A DNA stretch of 64,000 nucleotides from Cristatella mucedo (lineage: Eukaryota; Bryozoa; Phylactolaemata; Cristatellidae). A program made the position numbers and the translations under genes. Location: positions 1,110,001 to 1,174,000 of the forward strand of contig WPIO01000016.1 in assembly GCA_009760855.2 (NCBI GenBank). The letters run 5' to 3'. Shown piece by piece: positions 555 to 52,059 of the stretch (the first letter of the stretch is position 1; the number at the start of each line of letters is the position of its first letter). The notes beneath the pieces are model-generated. The model was not told where the DNA came from. It searched no databases and saw only the letters and a program-made list of their open reading frames with translations.

Positions 555-3500
555 CTGCAAAGATTCGATTTGCAGCATCCCCGCTTGCTGCTGCGCACTG
601 ACCGCCGCAGACGATTTACGGCACTGGCCGAGATTCTTGAATACAGGCAATGGGAATGATCTAGATGAGATTTATTTTCCAAATGCGAGAACTATTGTGG
701 CTGCCATACTCTTGTCTAAGCATGCTACAATTTCGGCAATTTTTATCTGAAAGTTGGCAGACTTAACACTGGAAGAAATGCGCTCATCAAATGACAAGTC
801 GCTTGGGAATAGTACTTTGGCGATTACGCGAAGACGCATAAGTGGACTGACGCTGAGCTGAAGCAATCTTGAGGGTAAGTCTTCTAATCTTTGGGTGACA
901 TTAGGTTTTCCCATAACTATCACGTGGGTCTTATCATCGTTGAGCTTCAAGAAGTGAGTGGCCATCCAAGTGCGAAGATCAGCGCCTAGAGAGAGATTAA
1001 GTTCTCTGAGGGCGCTTTATCAAGTGAATTATTATTATTATGTAGGCGGCGAGGGAATCAAGAGAGTCACGTGTCGAGCAAGGCTTAGAATGGTCTACGA
1101 GTAGGTAGAGCCGAATGTCGTCGGCGTCGGAAGGGAAGCCGAGACTGCGTCTGGCGTTGGCAGCGGCCAAAGAGAGAGTGGCCATATTGGGAATAGAATG
1201 GGCTGGGACCTGGGACCGAAACCTGACGTATATCGAACATTAAGGACTTCCCCGGATGACCGACCAACAGCCATTTATATCTGCACTCTGAAATCTCGCA
1301 GCGAGTCTTGAACTAACGCAGTTTAGCACTGCGCCGGCGATACCTAAAACAAATATCAGCTGATTCAACAGCCTCGTTTGCATAGCGGCAGAAGACCCTT
1401 AACAGCTATCACAAACCACTTGGTGTTGGCAATAACGGATCGCCCACTGCTGGATTCTAGACCACGACCACCGATAGTGAAGAGTGAGCACCTTACCTAC
1501 TGGCGTTTGTAGAAGTGCTCATGGATCTGGTGGTCAATTGTGTCAAATACTGAGAGACCTAAGAGAGTTAGCAGAGATACCCCACTGAGATCAGCATTGT
1601 TATGTCAGGAGGTCATTGTTATATCAGCACGTCAGGAGGCTCGAGCCCACGACCTCGGCCTCGACCTTGCTCAGGGCGAGCACCTTAACCGCCGGGCCAA
1701 ACCTGCGCGGCATTTGAAATTGCTTGAGGTTTCTGTACCCCTGCTGGATAAATGCACTTGTAAACTTAAGGTCGCTGCACTTGTGTTGCATATGGCTGCG
1801 AGAACTCGGTTAACAGGATGCCTCCGGGCGTCCGTCTCGGCACGGTCTCGCTGAGGCCCAGCTGCAGCGTACACGACGCCTACAGGCAGCACCGGCACGA
1901 CCTTCACCTCGCTCCGATGAGCTCTTCATCTTATGTCTGCCAGAGTCTAACCGCTCCTGCTCCAGCGGCTCCTGCTCCTGCGGCGGCTCCGTCGCAGTGT
2001 TGATGCGAATAGATATTCATTCCGAAGCGTACGACCCTTTGCGCAGCGTCCTTCACGTAGCCGAGAGACACCGAGGTGACTCGCAAGGCAGCAGTCTAGA
2101 CTCTAGCCAGAGGCGAAGCCAGCATTGGAGCGCCGGGTCTTGGCACGGGGGGGAGGGGGTCTAGGGGCAGAGCTCGTTACAAAGGGGGTGTGGAGGCGTC
2201 ACCCTTCAGCGCCTGTGGCAAGCTACAATTAAATAAATAAATCCTAGCTGATTAAACAGCCTCTTTTGTATAGCGACAGAAGAGCCTTTGCGGCTATCAC
2301 CACCGCTTGCAGTAGCGATACAGAATCGCCCACCGCAGGAATCGAACCCAAGGCCTCGGGACCGAGGTCGTGAAAGCAACCCCCTTACCTAGTGTGCCAA
2401 CAATTGGCCGATATGACGCCGCAACGGCCAGTCAAATAGACCATGGCCGCTGGCCAACCGACCGGCTGTCCGGCTCGGCTGCCACCTGCCAGGCCAGTGG
2501 CAGGTGGCAGCTGCCACCCCTGCCACCCTCCCGGCATCGCCTCTGTCTCTATCCATCCTCTACTCGTGCGTCCTTGCCCTTGTTCCACAGCACGAGTGAA
2601 CTTCCTAGAAATACGCGCACCGAAATATGATCGGCCTCCTATATCGCACACCTGGTTACCCAGTGCACGCGACTGGTAGCCCCCTGCTACGTTCTGCTTA
2701 GCTGTTCAGCTTTGCAGGGCAATTACACCCGACAATGCTTTAATAAGTTTCAAAGCGAAGCAGGCCGCAACGTTAAAGTGCAGCAGGCCGAGAATAGTCA
2801 AAAGTTCGAAATTTTAATAGGCCAGCACGAAGCGCCCGTCGAGGTACCCTTCACGCCCCAAACGTTAGCAGAAGGAAAACCTTCACGCTTCGCTCCTGAT
2901 CAACTTATCGATGTATCAACGATGTACCAATCTTAGCTGCTTGCCCAGCGCAAACTCGCCCCAATCAGTTCGAGCAGACGAACGCAGCAGACTCCCCAAT
3001 GGACTCTTTGGCTGCCGAGCTTGACATCACAACGTCAAGCACGTCAGTGAGAGACTCTCCTTCGGGTGGGGGTCAGCAGATGTCAGCAGAGGTCTGCAGG
3101 GGGGGGGGTGGCGGGCGTCAAGCACGTCAGTGAGAGACTCCTTCGGGAGGGGTCAGCAGAGGTCAGTAGGGGGTTGGGCTCGGCAGGCGGCGGCGAGCGG
3201 CACACCGTGCTGGCGGCAGAAGCTCTCACCCAAGCTGAAGTCTATGGAGCTTGATTCGTAGTTGAACGGTCTAGCCGTATACCTGACGGTGCCAACGTTG
3301 GTATAGATTCGCCTCGCTTTCGTCTGCCGGTCGACGTAGCCTGATTTACAACGGGAAGCCGCACTGCAGCCGCCGCTGCCGCTGCCACGCAGCTGCCTGC
3401 GCCGGTGGCCGGTGGTGGCGGTGGCCGGCTGCGGCCGCTCGCCGGCTGCGGGCAGTCAGTCGCTCTGATGACAGCTCGCATGCGACTCCGAGGCTCCGTC

Positions 3501-10004: not shown

Positions 10005-10047
<43 letters not shown>

Positions 10048-10156
10048 GAGAGAGCAAGTGAGAGAGAGAGAGAAAGAGAGAGTGGGAGAGAGAGGAAGAG
10101 AGAGGAAGAGAGAGAGGGAGGGAGAGAAGGGAAGAGAGAGAGAGGAAAAGAGAGAA

Positions 10157-10187
<31 letters not shown>

Positions 10188-10255
10188 GAGAGTGGGAGAG
10201 AGACGAAGAGAGGGAGAGAGAGAGAGGGAGAGAGAGGGAGAGAGAGGGAGAGAGA

Positions 10256-10296
<41 letters not shown>

Positions 10297-13200
10297 TGGG
10301 AGAGAGAGGAAGAGAGAAAGGGAGAGAGAGAGAGAGAAAGAGAGATGAAATTTAGAGAGAGAGAGACAAATAGAGACAGAGAAGAAGAGAGATGAGAGAG
10401 AGAGAGAAAGGGAGAGTGGGAGAGAAAAGAAGAGAGGGGGTGGGAGAGAGACGAAGAGAGAGAGGGGGGTGGGAGGGAGAGAGAGAGAGGAAGAGAGGGA
10501 GAGAGAGATTGGGAGAGAGAGGAAGGGAGAGAGAGAGGAAAAGAGAGTGGGAGAGAGAAGAAGAGAAGGAGTGGGAGAGAGACAAAAAGAGAGAGATTGG
10601 GAGAGAGAGGAAGAGAGAGAGAAAGTGGGAGAGAAAGGAAGAGAGAATGAGAGAGAGAGAGAGCGGAAGAGAAATGAAATTGAGAGAGAGAGAGACAAAT
10701 AGAGACACAGAAGAAGAGAGAGAGAGAGAAAGAGAGAGTGGCAGAGAGAAGAAGAGAGGGGTGGGAGAGAGAGGAAGAGAGAGAGAGAGAAAGAGAAAAG
10801 GAGTGTCTTAAAGTCGATTCGATCTATGTTAAGAGAGCCAGTGAAGCTCAGATAGAAGTGATGTGGTGTGGCAGCTATGCCGTTGACGACAGACCAGATG
10901 AGCTTTCGAGTTTTTCACCAGTTGCAAACAATTGAGGGAACAAACCAAGAGTCCTAAATCACAGAACATGAAGTCATTTAGACGCGGTTTCGCAAATGCG
11001 AAAACTAATTTGCCTGTTGCGCACTCACCTATGAAGGTCCTAATTTTAGCAATGTTCCTCTGCTAAAATTAGCGGACTAGACAGTGGAAATGAGGTGCAA
11101 GTGCATGCAGTGTAAGAAAACGACACGTGGTCTAACATAGCGAGACATGGCTGCATAGACTAGGAGTCATGCGAAATAGTCGGAAGCATTTTCTAGCACA
11201 TCAACCAAATAAAGTGCATCGTTACGGACTGCTAATCTCGTGGTCGTCAAATCTGCGTTTTTGTCGCGTCTGTGTTTAGCTGCAACATTATTAAAACGAT
11301 GTACAGGTGATAAAGCTGATAAGGATGATGATGATGATCTAACAGCCTTGCTCCGCTTGTTGCAGGCAATGAAGGATTTTCTGCTGCAGAACTCACCCAC
11401 GACCTGGATAGTGAAGAACAAACACCTTATCCCTAAGCTAAGAAACCGAACTGCTGCTCATAGGATACCCTAAGCGTGCGGCTGGATTAAAATGCTTTGA
11501 TCTTCTAATAGTTGATGCTGTCGTGCGACCATCACCATGTGCTCAAATTTAGGTGTCGTTTTAGACAGCTGCATAAGTTTTAAAAGCTTCATTCAGAAGA
11601 CTGTTTCTAAAGCTAGCTATCACGTTCGATCCCTATCTAAGATTAGGAGCTGTCTTCTACACTGGCTTACAAAAAATTTAACTAGCTCCTTAGTTTTGCC
11701 TCAGCTTGATTATTGCCATTCCTTTTTGGCTGGTATACAAAGAAAGCAACTAGGCTACTACAGCTGGCTTGAATATGGCTGCAAGGCTAGTTTCAAGTCT
11801 CAAAGGTTTGACAACGTGTCTCCTTTGCTAAAAGAGCTGGGATGGCTGACGGTTGAGCAGCGGATACAGAGCATAGTTATTACGCTGACCCACAAGGCCC
11901 GCCATGGCTTGGCTCCTCCATACCTAGCTGAACTGCTGCATCAGTTTCAGCCTCTTCGTACCCTCAGGTCCTTATGGACGATTAATTGGCTGTTCCATTC
12001 CTCTGCTTAAAGACCTTCGGTGACAAAAGCTTTAGCTCTGTAGGTCCAAGACTGTGAAACTCGCTTCCACTATTCTTACGCAACAACAACTACTCTCCTG
12101 CTGCCGACTATGGCTCATCTTTTTCAGCGGTCCTGAGCTGCTACTTCGATGCTACTCACTACCTCAACTGATCTCCTGACTCTGCTATGCTTCCCACTTT
12201 CTCTTGGTTGCGTGAGATGAAGTCTGTTGGCTACCGAATGCGTACCAAAAGCCGCTTAGGCTATGAGTACGCTATACAAAACTCTCCTGCGTAACACCCA
12301 CAGAGTTTTTGTGGCTTTGCGGAGTTACAGACGGATATACATTACATCCAGGTGTACTTAATGCTGCTTACAAGCTCAATACATGTATAGCCAGAGACAT
12401 ATCAAACAATTTTCTGCACATAAAGCGTTTTGTCTTGCACTATTTCCTAGTCTGTATTCAGCATATAGTTTACATATTATTAAGCCTACCACAGGCTTCC
12501 TTTGAGCTCAAGATTTCGTTCCAATTAAACACTTTACATCAGATACCGGCTATTGACGTCTTTTAATTCATATTTCATTTTGAATTGCCTTTTACCGGAA
12601 AAAAACATGAAATAAAATGCTCTCTGTCGCTGCATATATCCAAATACTTCAAATCTATTAAGCTATCTCGAATATTTCACACGTGTGTCATCCTTAAATT
12701 ATTCATGCAATTACTTTTAAATAAAACATGCTCGCTCTTTCACTCCTTTATTCTCTCGTTCCATCTCTGTCTACCTCCGTGTGGGCAAATGTAGTCCTGT
12801 GCATTGTTAGCAACCCGTAAGCAAAAGAAATGAGTTTGAATACGCAATCTCCCAAACACTCGCGGCCTGTGCAGAAATACCTTACTCGCCTGGTGCCGTA
12901 CACAATGTCGCCTCTTTGATGACTTGCACGGCCGCCGAATTTTGATGGGAAGAGATCAAGAGGACTCTCTCCATAATCATCCAGCATGTTCGAGACTTTG
13001 AGTGTGGGCAGACCCTCTAAAAAGCATTAATAATTGCTGCTTAATGCAATTTGTAAAACATTTGCCTCGACATATTCAGTCGCAGCTACCCAAATATGTG
13101 TGACCGTGCTGGTACAGAAAGTACAACGCTTCCAGTTACAACGTACATATCAAAATCACAATCGAGCTTCAAATTACAATCGAGCAGAGCTTAAGTGATT

Positions 13201-20384: not shown

Positions 20385-23300
20385 TGTGGGTATGTGTTTG
20401 TGTCTCGTGGCTATGAACTCGCTAGCAACGACAGACACAGCTGCATCGGTCACCCACAAAAATACTTCATTTGTATAGCAGCTTAAAAGAATTTAATCTT
20501 TATCCAGGTGCATTGCATTTGCTGCAGCGCTCGAGCCCACGACTCGTTAAAAGGCAAGCACCTTACTCCTAGGCCGAAACCGAGGTCGTGTCCTCTCTGT
20601 ATAAATGCATGTCTTTTCACTTAGCTCAAACCGGACCTTTCCCACCCACCACAGAAGCCACCATAAAAAGACAGTTTGTGCATTAGCATTATATAAAGAA
20701 AAACCAGCGCTAGCATGAGGTCGGTTGGAATCTGTAGCACCTGTAGCAATCACAATACAAAAATCCTGTTAGCACGACAGCTAGAGCTCTATGCCATGTT
20801 ATGTTGTTTACCCCATGATACCACTCACCACTCGATCGTGTTTCCTTTGCAGCAAATGTAAAGTGCCTAGAAAGAGATTGAGTTCTCTGAAGGCGCTTTG
20901 TCAAGTGTATTATTATTATTATTATTATTATATGCAAAGAGGCGCCTGGCCATCAGCTCAGCTAGACTTGAAGTGTAACACCAATGACTCAGCTGGCTCT
21001 GATGCAGCTCTCCATTAGGATAACAGGTCAAGAAACACGAGTAAGCCTAGGGAATTCTAATTCTTTACAGCCTAGAAACCCCAAATCGTGGTGGTAAGAA
21101 CAAGTCAGTGAACCAAATCTATGTACAGCAATTTACATGTGCTGTAGTGGACGCACGTCGTTTGCTTTGGGATAGCATGTTTTTCATGACCTCGGTCACG
21201 AGGTCATGGGATCGAAAAAAAATCCTAGCTGATTAAACAGCCTCTTTTTGTATAGCGACAGAAGAGCCTTTACGGCTATCACCACCGCTTGCAGTGACGA
21301 TAAAGGATTGCCCACCGCCGGAATCGAACCCATGACCTCGGTCCCGAGGTCGGGAAAGCAACCGCCTTACCTAGTGTGCCATCACGGCTTGACCCATTAT
21401 ACAACCACACGGTACTTGCTTGCCTCTAGGACGAGCTAGTTAGGCTATCAACTGACCGCTCGTGGCACTGTTCTTCTTATTCCCAACTTTACAAATTGGA
21501 CCACGCTTTCGAATTCTGTCACCACCTGCAATGACTTCCCGTCAGTTAAGTCTAACCTAAAAACCCAATCGTTCTGCTCAGCTTTGCTGCACATCAGAAC
21601 TTTTCTCTTTTTTTTGCCCCGTGTGCTTTTCGTGCTAACCTGTACACGATTCAGTGCATGCTACTTACTAACCGGGGGCTCTAATAATCTGTAGTCATGA
21701 GTGTCTTCTTTTGTGATTGTGCATGCTAACCAAACCAAGATAATTGTTGCTTGTGCATGCTTTTCTTCTAAGCATGATACCGCACACATCACTCATCCTA
21801 GGTCATCGCTCCTCTTTTAGCGAGTTGTAAAGCTCTTTCATGGAGATCTGGTTCTGCTGAGGTGTGTTACAAACTACTATTTTCATTACTTTTATTTATA
21901 TCATTATTAGTGTTATTCTTCCTATCATTATTATAGCTTGCTGGCATTACGTGCACGAGTCACGATCCAAAGCATATACAATGTAAGCAGGCTGATGTTG
22001 TCGGGATGAAAAAGAAAAAGAGCAACTTGCCTTCTCCTGAGCAGTGCGATCCGTGTCCGACCTCGCTGCTGCCATGCTCATGCAGCGATCCAGGTAGGCA
22101 TCGATATTTGCAGAAGTGATGGTTGGATCCGTAACGAAGTCGAACAGCTCCTTCACCGTGAGTGCGCAAACACCTAAGTTAGGCAAGTGGCTTTAAAACG
22201 CCGACGCCCAATCATGACTGTTGGCCAGCGGTCGACCGCCCATCGCAAGGCAGGCAAGCAGGCCAGCACAGAGCGGTCAGCACTGGATCGCAGCAAGCTA
22301 GCAGAATCAGGATAATCACTTTCGCACCTGCCTTTCTCAGGAAATCTCGTATACACAAATGCTATCTAACAGGTGGCAAAACCAGGCCATGGCTACAGAT
22401 TGCAAATCAGATATGCCACGAAAGACCAATCAAATTACTAGGTCTCACCGTTCTTAGCAAAGAAGTCGTTAATGTTGGTGATGTCCTTACGAAGGAAATC
22501 CAAAGCGTGCGGATGATCGTGCTCCACCGACTGCGACACATCAATGACGTACGCTGAGCCGTTGTGATAGAGTAAATTGTACTCCGACAAGTCTGCATGC
22601 ACGAGTCGGCAGTCACAGTACAGAGTACGCAGCATTCGTACACACTGCAGGTACAGCTCTCGTGCTTTGGACTCTGTCAAACGAAAGAAATGCGTGTGAG
22701 CGCGAAATCGACGGAAAAGAAAAAGCAAGAAAAAAGAAAAGCCAAGAAAAGCAAGCGATGAAGACGAGAGCAGCGGCGGCAGCAGCGCAGGATGCGAGCA
22801 GGTGGCTACAAAGTGAACAAGGATTTTTACATCATTAACATACCACTAGGCAACTGATGCAGCATTCTTCCCACCTGAACTGTGCAAAACGTATCTCAAG
22901 CAAAAACAGTACCACTCCGCATGCCATGGACATATGGAAACTTCCGAGGTTTGGTCCCGTGCTATCACTATTTTGCTCGGGTACAACTGAACTTGCCTCT
23001 ACAGCATGCACTATCGTGGCAGTGGATGATTATGAAAGATGATTTTGAAAGAAGCAAGATATAAAATCCCTAAGACATCTTCAGCTACAGTCAAGTCGGC
23101 CTACTATCAGCAACGTACTATCGCAAAAAGCCAGCTTAGGCAAGGATACCACTACCTAGCTGATCATACATTTGTGACATCGTGTTTAAGACTTCTGTAA
23201 CTCACTACTCACAGGTCTTCCGGCAACAAGACGTAGCAGCTGGTGCAAAACTCGGGTAGGCCTACCTGTCGAGGACTTTATCACATTACAACATTACTAC

Positions 23301-26300
23301 ATTACAACACTTCTCACCAACCTGCACTGGCTCCCCGTCAAGAAGTATCGATATCGTGTATCGATTTCAAGGCTCAGTCACTACCTTCTAGGACCTGTCA
23401 CCCGCTTGTCCTACAATGTCTAAACTCAATGTATACAATCCAAACAATGTCTAACCCGTATGTAAACCTGAAGAAACATAGCTAAATATAGAAATATTAA
23501 CCGATAGCTGCATTATATGCAATCTGTATCCCAACTTGTTGAACCCTGGTTGATCCTTGAACCTTGATAGATCGAGGTACATGTGTGAAGCGTTTTGAGG
23601 TGCAAGCTTGTGACTTGTATACCACTTCATTTCCAGTGTAGCTTGATGGCTTGTACACTCCATAACTCGGCTAATACTTCAAGCATCGGAGTAAAATTTG
23701 AAATGTGAGTTCAGCTCTGCTTGTATCAAATTATTAAGTTGCTATACGTGTCATCAAACGTTCTGGAGCTTTATTTTCTGAAACCATGGACACGGAATGG
23801 AGGTAGTTAGGAAGTGACAAGCGCAAATCAGTCAGCAAGTAACAGAGAGCCAGAGACATACACCAAGAGACAAGATGAAGAGACACAGGTCTGAGAAAGA
23901 GACTAAGAGACAGAGAGTGAGAGATCCAGAAACTCCACCGCCCTTCTTGAATACACTTGCCACTGAGCAGCACGTCCTTGAGCTTTGGAGCAGGCCAGCC
24001 GTCCGAGCCTATGAAGTCCATTACGAGCACGTGACTGCGCAGATAGTGTGGCCGTGGAGCCGGCAAACCCTCTCGCTGTAGACGCAGCAGGTTCCGCATC
24101 TCCTTTTCTGCCCATGTGCGTACCATCTTACGTGGGTTGTGCTTACAGTAGCCACGCCGGAACCGGAACTCACCAGTCACATACTTATCTCTGAAAAATC
24201 ACGGATCTGCTGCAGGTGGAGGCAGCAGAGCACCAGACACGAGTACCACGTATACAACCGAGGACGAGGCTATACTACCTGCGACTTCCACAGAATAATA
24301 AAGTCGGGACTAAGCTATTTTGCCCTAAAAAGAATGTCAGCCTAGAATCTGACAGTATTAAGTAAATAAGAGATGCTTAACTTACTGATCGCCACAGTCG
24401 TGCGATCGAATAACTGCATGCAGCTAGTTTTTGCCAAGTATTAAGAATCAGCTCGGTCCTAACTACTGTAACGTATTTCAATATGTCACATGCTTTACCA
24501 AGTTGAAGCATTTTGTATTAATAAAAGCATAGCTGCTCACGACTTAGCAAGGAAAATCGAAGCCAAATGTGTTTGTAGTTTGGTACACTCGGGCAAAACA
24601 CAGCTGGCAATATGCACAAACAATAAGTCACCTTATCAAATACATCTTAAAAATCTTACATTTTGAACACAGTCCAACAAGCACGACATTCTTAACACAA
24701 GCTGCTACTGTTATATGGTGTTAAGCACAGCACTGCTTACTCTACAGCACATGCCAAGTGCCTAGAAAGAAAGAGACTTAGTTCTCTGACGGTCTATACA
24801 AATGTATCATTATAATTATTAGTCTTGCGAAAAAACCATTGCCGAGATATCCTGCATCTGCCACAATAATTTCAAGAGGCACCAGCACTAATCGCCGGCT
24901 AGTGTAAATGCAATTACATTGTACAACAAAGCAGTCTCATTCTTCTGCCAACAGCACCGAGACTGAGCTTAATCAGTGCAGCACCAAGAAAACATGGCAA
25001 ATCAGATCAATCACCAAGGCATCGGGAAATAGATTAAGAAAATCGGGGCACAGTGACGGATTCAGCAAATTCGTTCCACTAAATTGGCCACATTAGCAAA
25101 ATTCACGAATGCCAGCAGCAGCGACATACCTATCCTTAAACACGAGGATTGACGTTTTGTAAACTTTGATGGCCCGGTGCTCTCCCGACGGTGTGACAGC
25201 GTGATACACATTGGCTTCTTTACCTATGCAAGCAGAGCATAATAAAAGCTACGACTTCACCGTGTAATAATAATAATAATAATAATACATTTGATATAGC
25301 CCCTCAGAGAGCTTAATCTCTTTCTAGACACTTCACATTTGCTGTAAAGGAAGCACGATCGAATGGTTAGGGGTATAGGGGTAGCATACTCAATAAACAA
25401 CAACTTGGTTAGGAGTGACATGCACAGGGTCAGCACGCAAGTATGTCATTTAAAGCATTATCACATAAAGGATGAATCACAGGGACCCACTAAATGCTGT
25501 CAGAAATAGATGTTTCAAGTTTCTTTTTAAAGGTGGTCAAGTCACGAATGTCATGACGCAGGTCGGGAGTCAGTTCCACGCTTTGGGAGCATACGAACTA
25601 CAGGCATGGTCTCCAAAGGATTTGAGATTTGTACGAGGTATAGTTAAACACTTAAGACTCCCAAAAGCGGGTAGTACAAAGCTTAGCCTGGTGGGGCAGT
25701 AGATCAGATACGTAGGCTGGAGTCAAAGAATAAAGAGACCTGAAAGTGAGTGACATTGACCCTTCCCTTGAATTCGATGTGTTGCCTGACTGGGAGCCAG
25801 TGCGGGTCGGCGAGAAATGGTGTCATGTGGCAACTTCGACACTCACGACAGACAAGCCTAGCTGCAGTGTTCTGAATCATGCACAAGTACTCACACGCCT
25901 GTACAGCCTGCCTGCAGTGACGACTGAATTCACACAGCACCTGACATGGAATGTCGATTTAAAAAAAAGTCACAGTGAACACTATACAAGTTGCCAAGGT
26001 GCTTGGAGAATGTAGGACCAAGACAAAAAAGCACTTCCGTGCGGCGAAAGGAACGGCAGCAGTATTCAGTGAGTCCTGGTCTTTCACAAAAGTCCCATTA
26101 TTTCCAGTGGAGGCAGAACTATAAGTTCTGACCTGCCAGTAGCTATGCACCACAGACACCTCCATCAGGCTCCAATACATCTCGCAGGCAGACGACCCAT
26201 CCTAATGGCTAAAATGAATTGCAGGCTAAAGTCAAGATAACAGTATACTCAAAGGTTATGCAAAATGTCGTTTAAATGCTAAATATGCCTTAAGAATTCA

Positions 26301-33420: not shown

Positions 33421-33434
33421 ACATACATCTACAG

Positions 33435-33621
33435 CAGTAGTTTTAAACCTTCCTAATGCCGCAACCCTTAGATACAGTTCCTCATGTTGTGGCGACTCCC
33501 AACCACAAAATTATTGTGTGAGAAATGTGGAAATGCGTGTTTTCCGATGGTCTTAGGCGACCCCTGCGAAAGGGTCGTTCGACCCCCAAAGGGATCGCGA
33601 TCCGCAGGTTGAGAACCGCTG
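33435..33621 (-). mobile_element. hAT MITE resembling SPIN ('SPACE INVADERS')
   Basis: A 187-bp non-coding element flanked by a perfect 8-bp direct repeat ATCTACAG (33427-33434 and 33622-33629), the target-site length of hAT transposons. Imperfect terminal inverted repeats start CAGCGGTTCTCAACCTGCGG (minus strand) and CAGTAGTTTTAAACCTTCC (plus), 12 of the first 16 bases matching. Inside, the minus strand reads GGGGGTCGAACGACCCTTTC, then GGGGTCGCCTAAGACCATCG and GAAAACACGCATTT, then GGTTGGGAGTCGCCACAACA and TGAGGAACTGTAT. From memory these match the non-autonomous SPIN hAT family known in several vertebrates and some invertebrates. Orientation is given as the strand beginning with the better-kept inverted repeat. 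It lies upstream of the RIOK1 start. Confidence 0.85.
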
Positions 33622-33776
33622 ATCTACAGTATTTGTATATAAGTGTATGTGGTTTAGCATGAATGCACGGTGTTTGTGTGAGTTTGAGTGTTTCCCGTTT
33701 GCAATTTCCCAAACCCCCAGGACTAGGGTTGTTAGCCAACAGGTTTCACCTCGACCGAGAAAGAAAAAGCGAAGCA

Positions 33777-37697: not shown

Positions 37698-52059
<14,362 letters not shown>

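Follow-up and report, generated by a model that had tools for sequence, protein, structure and literature searches.

The 187-bp insertion described here very likely belongs to a large non-autonomous SPIN (SPACE INVADERS) family, from the Buster group of hAT transposons, that has many copies in the genome of an invertebrate. SPIN is best known from vertebrates, and murine rodents carry it. In the window (the whole 64-kb stretch of DNA analysed, which lies within contig 77 of the host assembly) the insertion is a MITE copy of the usual kind, lying between genes: open frames with RIO1 exons (minus strand, 22438-22845 and 23734-24198) stand on one side, and open frames with KH domains (plus strand, 44603-44842, 44917-45144 and 48592-48738) on the other. 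The KH-domain gene is consistent with FUBP, and the placement between RIOK1 and FUBP given in the preliminary description therefore holds; PSMD5 is also among the genes near the copy. Elsewhere in the window, some 790 bp of degenerate GA dinucleotide repeats (10008-10796) give rise to long open frames that are spurious, on either strand.

The coordinates of the element, its imperfect inverted ends and the exact 8-bp duplication that adjoins it on both sides were all confirmed as previously described (Table). The element is non-coding and non-autonomous, and at 187 bp too short for a transposase. The pairing of the two ends is imperfect in the window copy (CAGTAGTTTTAAACCT versus CAGCGGTTCTCAACCT), while the consensus of the family pairs at 15 of its first 16 positions. 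The 64-kb window contains no second copy, only short partial matches.

Table. Features of the element and of its insertion site (positions in the window)
Feature	Position	Strand	Sequence and remarks
Target-site duplication, left copy	33427..33434		ATCTACAG; minus strand CTGTAGAT, TA central
Non-autonomous SPIN-type hAT element, 187 bp	33435..33621	-	consensus 5' end = 33621, 3' end = 33435
3' inverted end, decayed in window copy	33435..33450	+	CAGTAGTTTTAAACCT; consensus CAGTGGTTCTCAACCT
Subterminal perfect palindrome	33592..33603		GGATCGCGATCC; consensus GGGTCGCGACCC; self-comparison
5' inverted end, consensus orientation	33606..33621	-	CAGCGGTTCTCAACCT
Target-site duplication, right copy	33622..33629		ATCTACAG

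Searching the host assembly (572 Mb in 688 contigs) with the element returned 2208 first-look candidates, and all 40 of those scored match, either in full or over most of the 187 bp, and lie on 30 contigs, mostly megabases long; the element is thus not a chance assemblage of letters. From these 40 copies, the window copy included, a 187-bp majority consensus was built, and a search with this consensus gave 2334 first-look candidates, of which 40 were again scored and 40 matched, with a top identity of 96%. The sample of 40 scored candidates was chosen by closeness to the window copy and is biased to that extent; the family is probably large, perhaps amounting to thousands of 187-bp copies.

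The flanks of the 40 copies carry the imprint of hAT transposition. The 8 bp on either side are identical in 13 copies, agree at 7 of 8 positions in 15 and at 6 of 8 in one, and match at five positions or fewer in 11; among 1560 mispaired left and right flanks, used as a control, agreement at 8 of 8 occurred in 0.06% and at 7 of 8 in 1.35%. Exact abutting repeats of 5, 7, 9, 10 or 11 bp were found in none of the 40 copies, and of 6 bp in one. A clear duplication is absent from 11/40 copies and so is kept by some copies only, and in some of these 11 the flanks may have been misplaced by indels at the ends. All 13 exact duplications, that of the window copy included, have TA at positions 4-5, which is the pattern nnnTAnnn. 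Duplications of 8 bp and short inverted ends starting with CAG are those of hAT elements, and 5'-nnnTAnnn-3' is the duplication consensus of the Buster group (PMC3517528). The earlier assignment to a hAT MITE is upheld by these duplications and by the multicopy nature of the family, further genomic copies with 8-bp duplications having indeed been found.

The suggestion of a fairly recent insertion is not supported. The window copy is 7.0% off the consensus (10 transitions, 3 transversions), above the mean of the sample, in which copies differ from the consensus by 3.8-8.6%, and no scored copy exceeds 96% identity to it; outside CpG, K2P distances to the consensus average 0.052 (range 0.025-0.093), with 0.072 for the window copy. 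Nor does the intact duplication argue for recency, since exact duplications also flank copies at least as diverged, such as that at locus L028, which is 7.5% off the consensus. Pairwise distances across the 40 copies average 0.107, near the 0.115 obtained by doubling the mean distance to the consensus, which fits a burst from few master copies.

Identification of the family as SPIN draws on mouse DNA in print, reference sequences and primers being located by a text search of papers with sequence words. A mouse FDH-gene sequence (PMC8376875) is identical to consensus positions 119-187 at 59 of 69 bases (E 8e-21 against the 187-base consensus), and the match stops exactly at GAGAACCACTG. Towards the other end, mouse Ate1 primer R2 (PMC2837401, PMC2767504) agrees with consensus 56-75 at 18/20 positions and a mouse Kcnq1ot1 primer (PMC6221546) with consensus 60-79 at 19/20, neither score being reached by any of 20000 shuffles. 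Mouse Ate1 primer R1 (ATE Scr R1) agrees at 18/19 with consensus 1-19 when its first base is removed, a figure without a shuffle control; the whole 20-mer forced inside the element scores 12/20, reached by 2422 of 20000 shuffles and so at chance level, because its first base falls outside the element. With matches at both ends, a family having both these ends exists in mouse. The four matches bear out the description of the element as SPIN-like, and the likeness to mouse DNA is neither low nor restricted to the terminal inverted repeats, as the mouse match reaches 69 bp inwards. The SPIN consensus also appears to agree almost throughout with both ends of the family, a lead rather than a test. 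SPIN identity is well supported and very probable, judged from a sequence comparison with mouse DNA taken as SPIN.

Since published mouse primers (Kcnq1ot1 qPCR, Ate1 screening; PMC6221546, PMC2837401, PMC2767504) match a repeat family, they may have more than one target among mouse sequences. Viral contigs, prokaryote genome contigs, plasmids and phages, scanned for stray animal DNA, contained no match to the element.

The host itself is likely a lophotrochozoan, perhaps of a mollusc-like kind. On a 21-kb mitochondrial contig, COX1 reads through by codes 5 and 9 and is stopped by the vertebrate code; we chose code 5, by which AAA is lysine at a site where lysine is conserved. The same mitochondrial genome carries nad1-nad6-cob-nad4L-nad4-nad5 as a block on a single strand (genes named by inspection of their translations), which is the arrangement of chiton-type molluscs and some other lophotrochozoans and is not the one known from pulmonate snails. 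Partial COX1 stretches on contig 166 (L080) and contig 83 (L081) are probably nuclear copies of mitochondrial DNA.

That vertebrate DNA contaminating the assembly should account for the element is exceedingly improbable. The idea draws on the vertebrate associations of SPIN (PMC11614815), and against it stand the 40 of 40 scored copies spread over 30 mostly megabase-long contigs, the reading of COX1 by an invertebrate code, and the position of the window copy on one contig with RIO1 and KH-domain genes that are diverged. On inspection, the RIO1 and PSMD5 exons are clearly diverged from the solved chains to which they were aligned.

The preliminary description had called for a search for an autonomous SPIN transposase in this genome, and none appeared among the scored matches of two probes. 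With a TcBuster probe, 69 matches were scored out of 890 candidates, with identities of at most 34%; with a second probe the figures were 74 out of 995, at most 35% and many at the same places. A SPIN transposase is probably absent from the host, and the family is probably immobile today. The 23 of the 69 TcBuster-probe loci that were read belong to two Buster families, mostly broken by stops: 20 to a family A of about 2.7 kb, whose copies are 90-96% identical (L082-L089, L091-L095, L097-L102 and L104), and three to a family B (L090, L096 and L103), among which L096 retains one open stretch of 599 codons. Between the element and these families there is no common end sequence beyond a 12-bp match with E 0.65 (an internal control).

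One of these loci, L090, has a Buster gene with 72 bp of SPIN end next to it; it was considered as an autonomous SPIN and rejected, as the SPIN stretch starts past the apparent family B end. At 2990-3109 of the locus that end (CAGGGGTCGGCAACC, on the other strand) directly adjoins consensus position 72 of the SPIN stretch, as if a family B element had landed in a SPIN copy older than itself, a reading based on one copy read at one end; in the sole full-length comparison, that of L096 with L090, the match ceases 107 bp short of the apparent family B end. A further hAT family, with end TAGGGCTGTACCGG (L049-L078; for example L060 from about 1062), looks very young: 63 of 138 PF05699 matches in the host genome score 69.4 bits or higher, open frames of some 640 codons being frequent among them, and each of the 30 PF05699 loci read aligns to L060, in most cases with an identity of 99% or higher along some 2.2 kb. 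It is a different family from that of the element, and SPIN ends are absent from its 30 loci read (E up to 0.01).

The abundance of Buster elements in the host invites the suggestion that the element belongs to a resident, vertically inherited Buster-group MITE family, whose SPIN-like ends reflect binding sites shared by related transposases. Buster elements can resemble one another over about 106 bp at their ends (PMC4298943), and similar ends alone are therefore no proof of a common family. We nevertheless regard this explanation as improbable, since the host's own families A and B share with the ends of the element only that 12-bp match, since the 72-bp SPIN piece of L090 sits outside the Buster gene and so represents no shared end, and since an identity of 59/69 with a mouse copy over 69 non-coding bp would be hard to maintain from the deuterostome-protostome split onwards. 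Slightly less probable again is that a SPIN-ended MITE was mobilised by the transposase of family A or B rather than by that of SPIN: both families are present, one of them with the long open stretch of L096, and a SPIN transposase was not seen among the scored matches, but their ends diverge from those of the element soon after the first CAG (CAGGGGTGTCCAAC, read in three family A loci, and the single family B end read), and a hAT enzyme is as a rule specific for the ends of its own element.

We thus prefer a SPIN origin, by which a SPIN-type transposase, supplied in trans, would have bound both ends and cut the element from elsewhere; the element would then have been pasted at a target with a central TA, and repair of the staggered cut would have left the 8-bp duplication. 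Horizontal transfer would have brought the family into the host lineage, a burst in the past would have raised its copy number, and for want of its transposase it is probably inactive now. Horizontal acquisition by the host lineage fits the sequence comparisons, because descent does not readily account for such a likeness between non-coding sequences of mouse and of an invertebrate.

Among known systems, the closest are the SPIN elements of mammals, other tetrapods and Rhodnius prolixus, which resemble the element in hAT class, in 8-bp duplications and at both ends (the ends as seen in mouse DNA), and whose non-autonomous forms are likewise short, non-coding and of high copy number. The host family differs from them in its lophotrochozoan-type host, and the comparison covers the ends rather than the interior or length of named SPIN_NA subfamilies. 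SPIN is also found in Lymnaea. SPIN is known in Rhodnius (PMC11614815), and a hAT significantly identical to SPIN is present at about 1,000 copies in a mollusc, the snail Biomphalaria glabrata (PMC5440852). The snail family, like ours, is multicopy, and no intact transposases were detected in the Biomphalaria assembly; our host has a mitochondrial block that is not the one known from pulmonate snails. Buster-group MITEs (Drosophila Mar, and those of Buster1 and Buster2 in planarian, insects and bats) have the nnnTAnnn duplications in common and derive from autonomous Busters (PMC3517528, PMC4298943), but their ends differ from those of the element: CAG(G/A)GGTAGGC in Mar, CAGGGCTTCTTAAAC in Buster1 and, in one species, CAGGGGTGGCCAACCT in Buster2.

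In a literature search largely without subscription papers, we recognised no further report of SPIN from lophotrochozoans, which is a weak indication of novelty. With confidence a little short of even, we suggest that a lophotrochozoan lineage other than the pulmonate snails may have been invaded by SPIN independently, with amplification that perhaps reached thousands of 187-bp copies. Among transposons that have crossed between distant animals SPIN is one of the clearest examples, and each further invertebrate host narrows the routes and timing of these crossings. If true, an independent lophotrochozoan invasion would widen the known reach of the wave of transfer between vertebrates and invertebrates. 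A lophotrochozoan SPIN family, once dated, would make it possible to ask which lineages were donors and which recipients.
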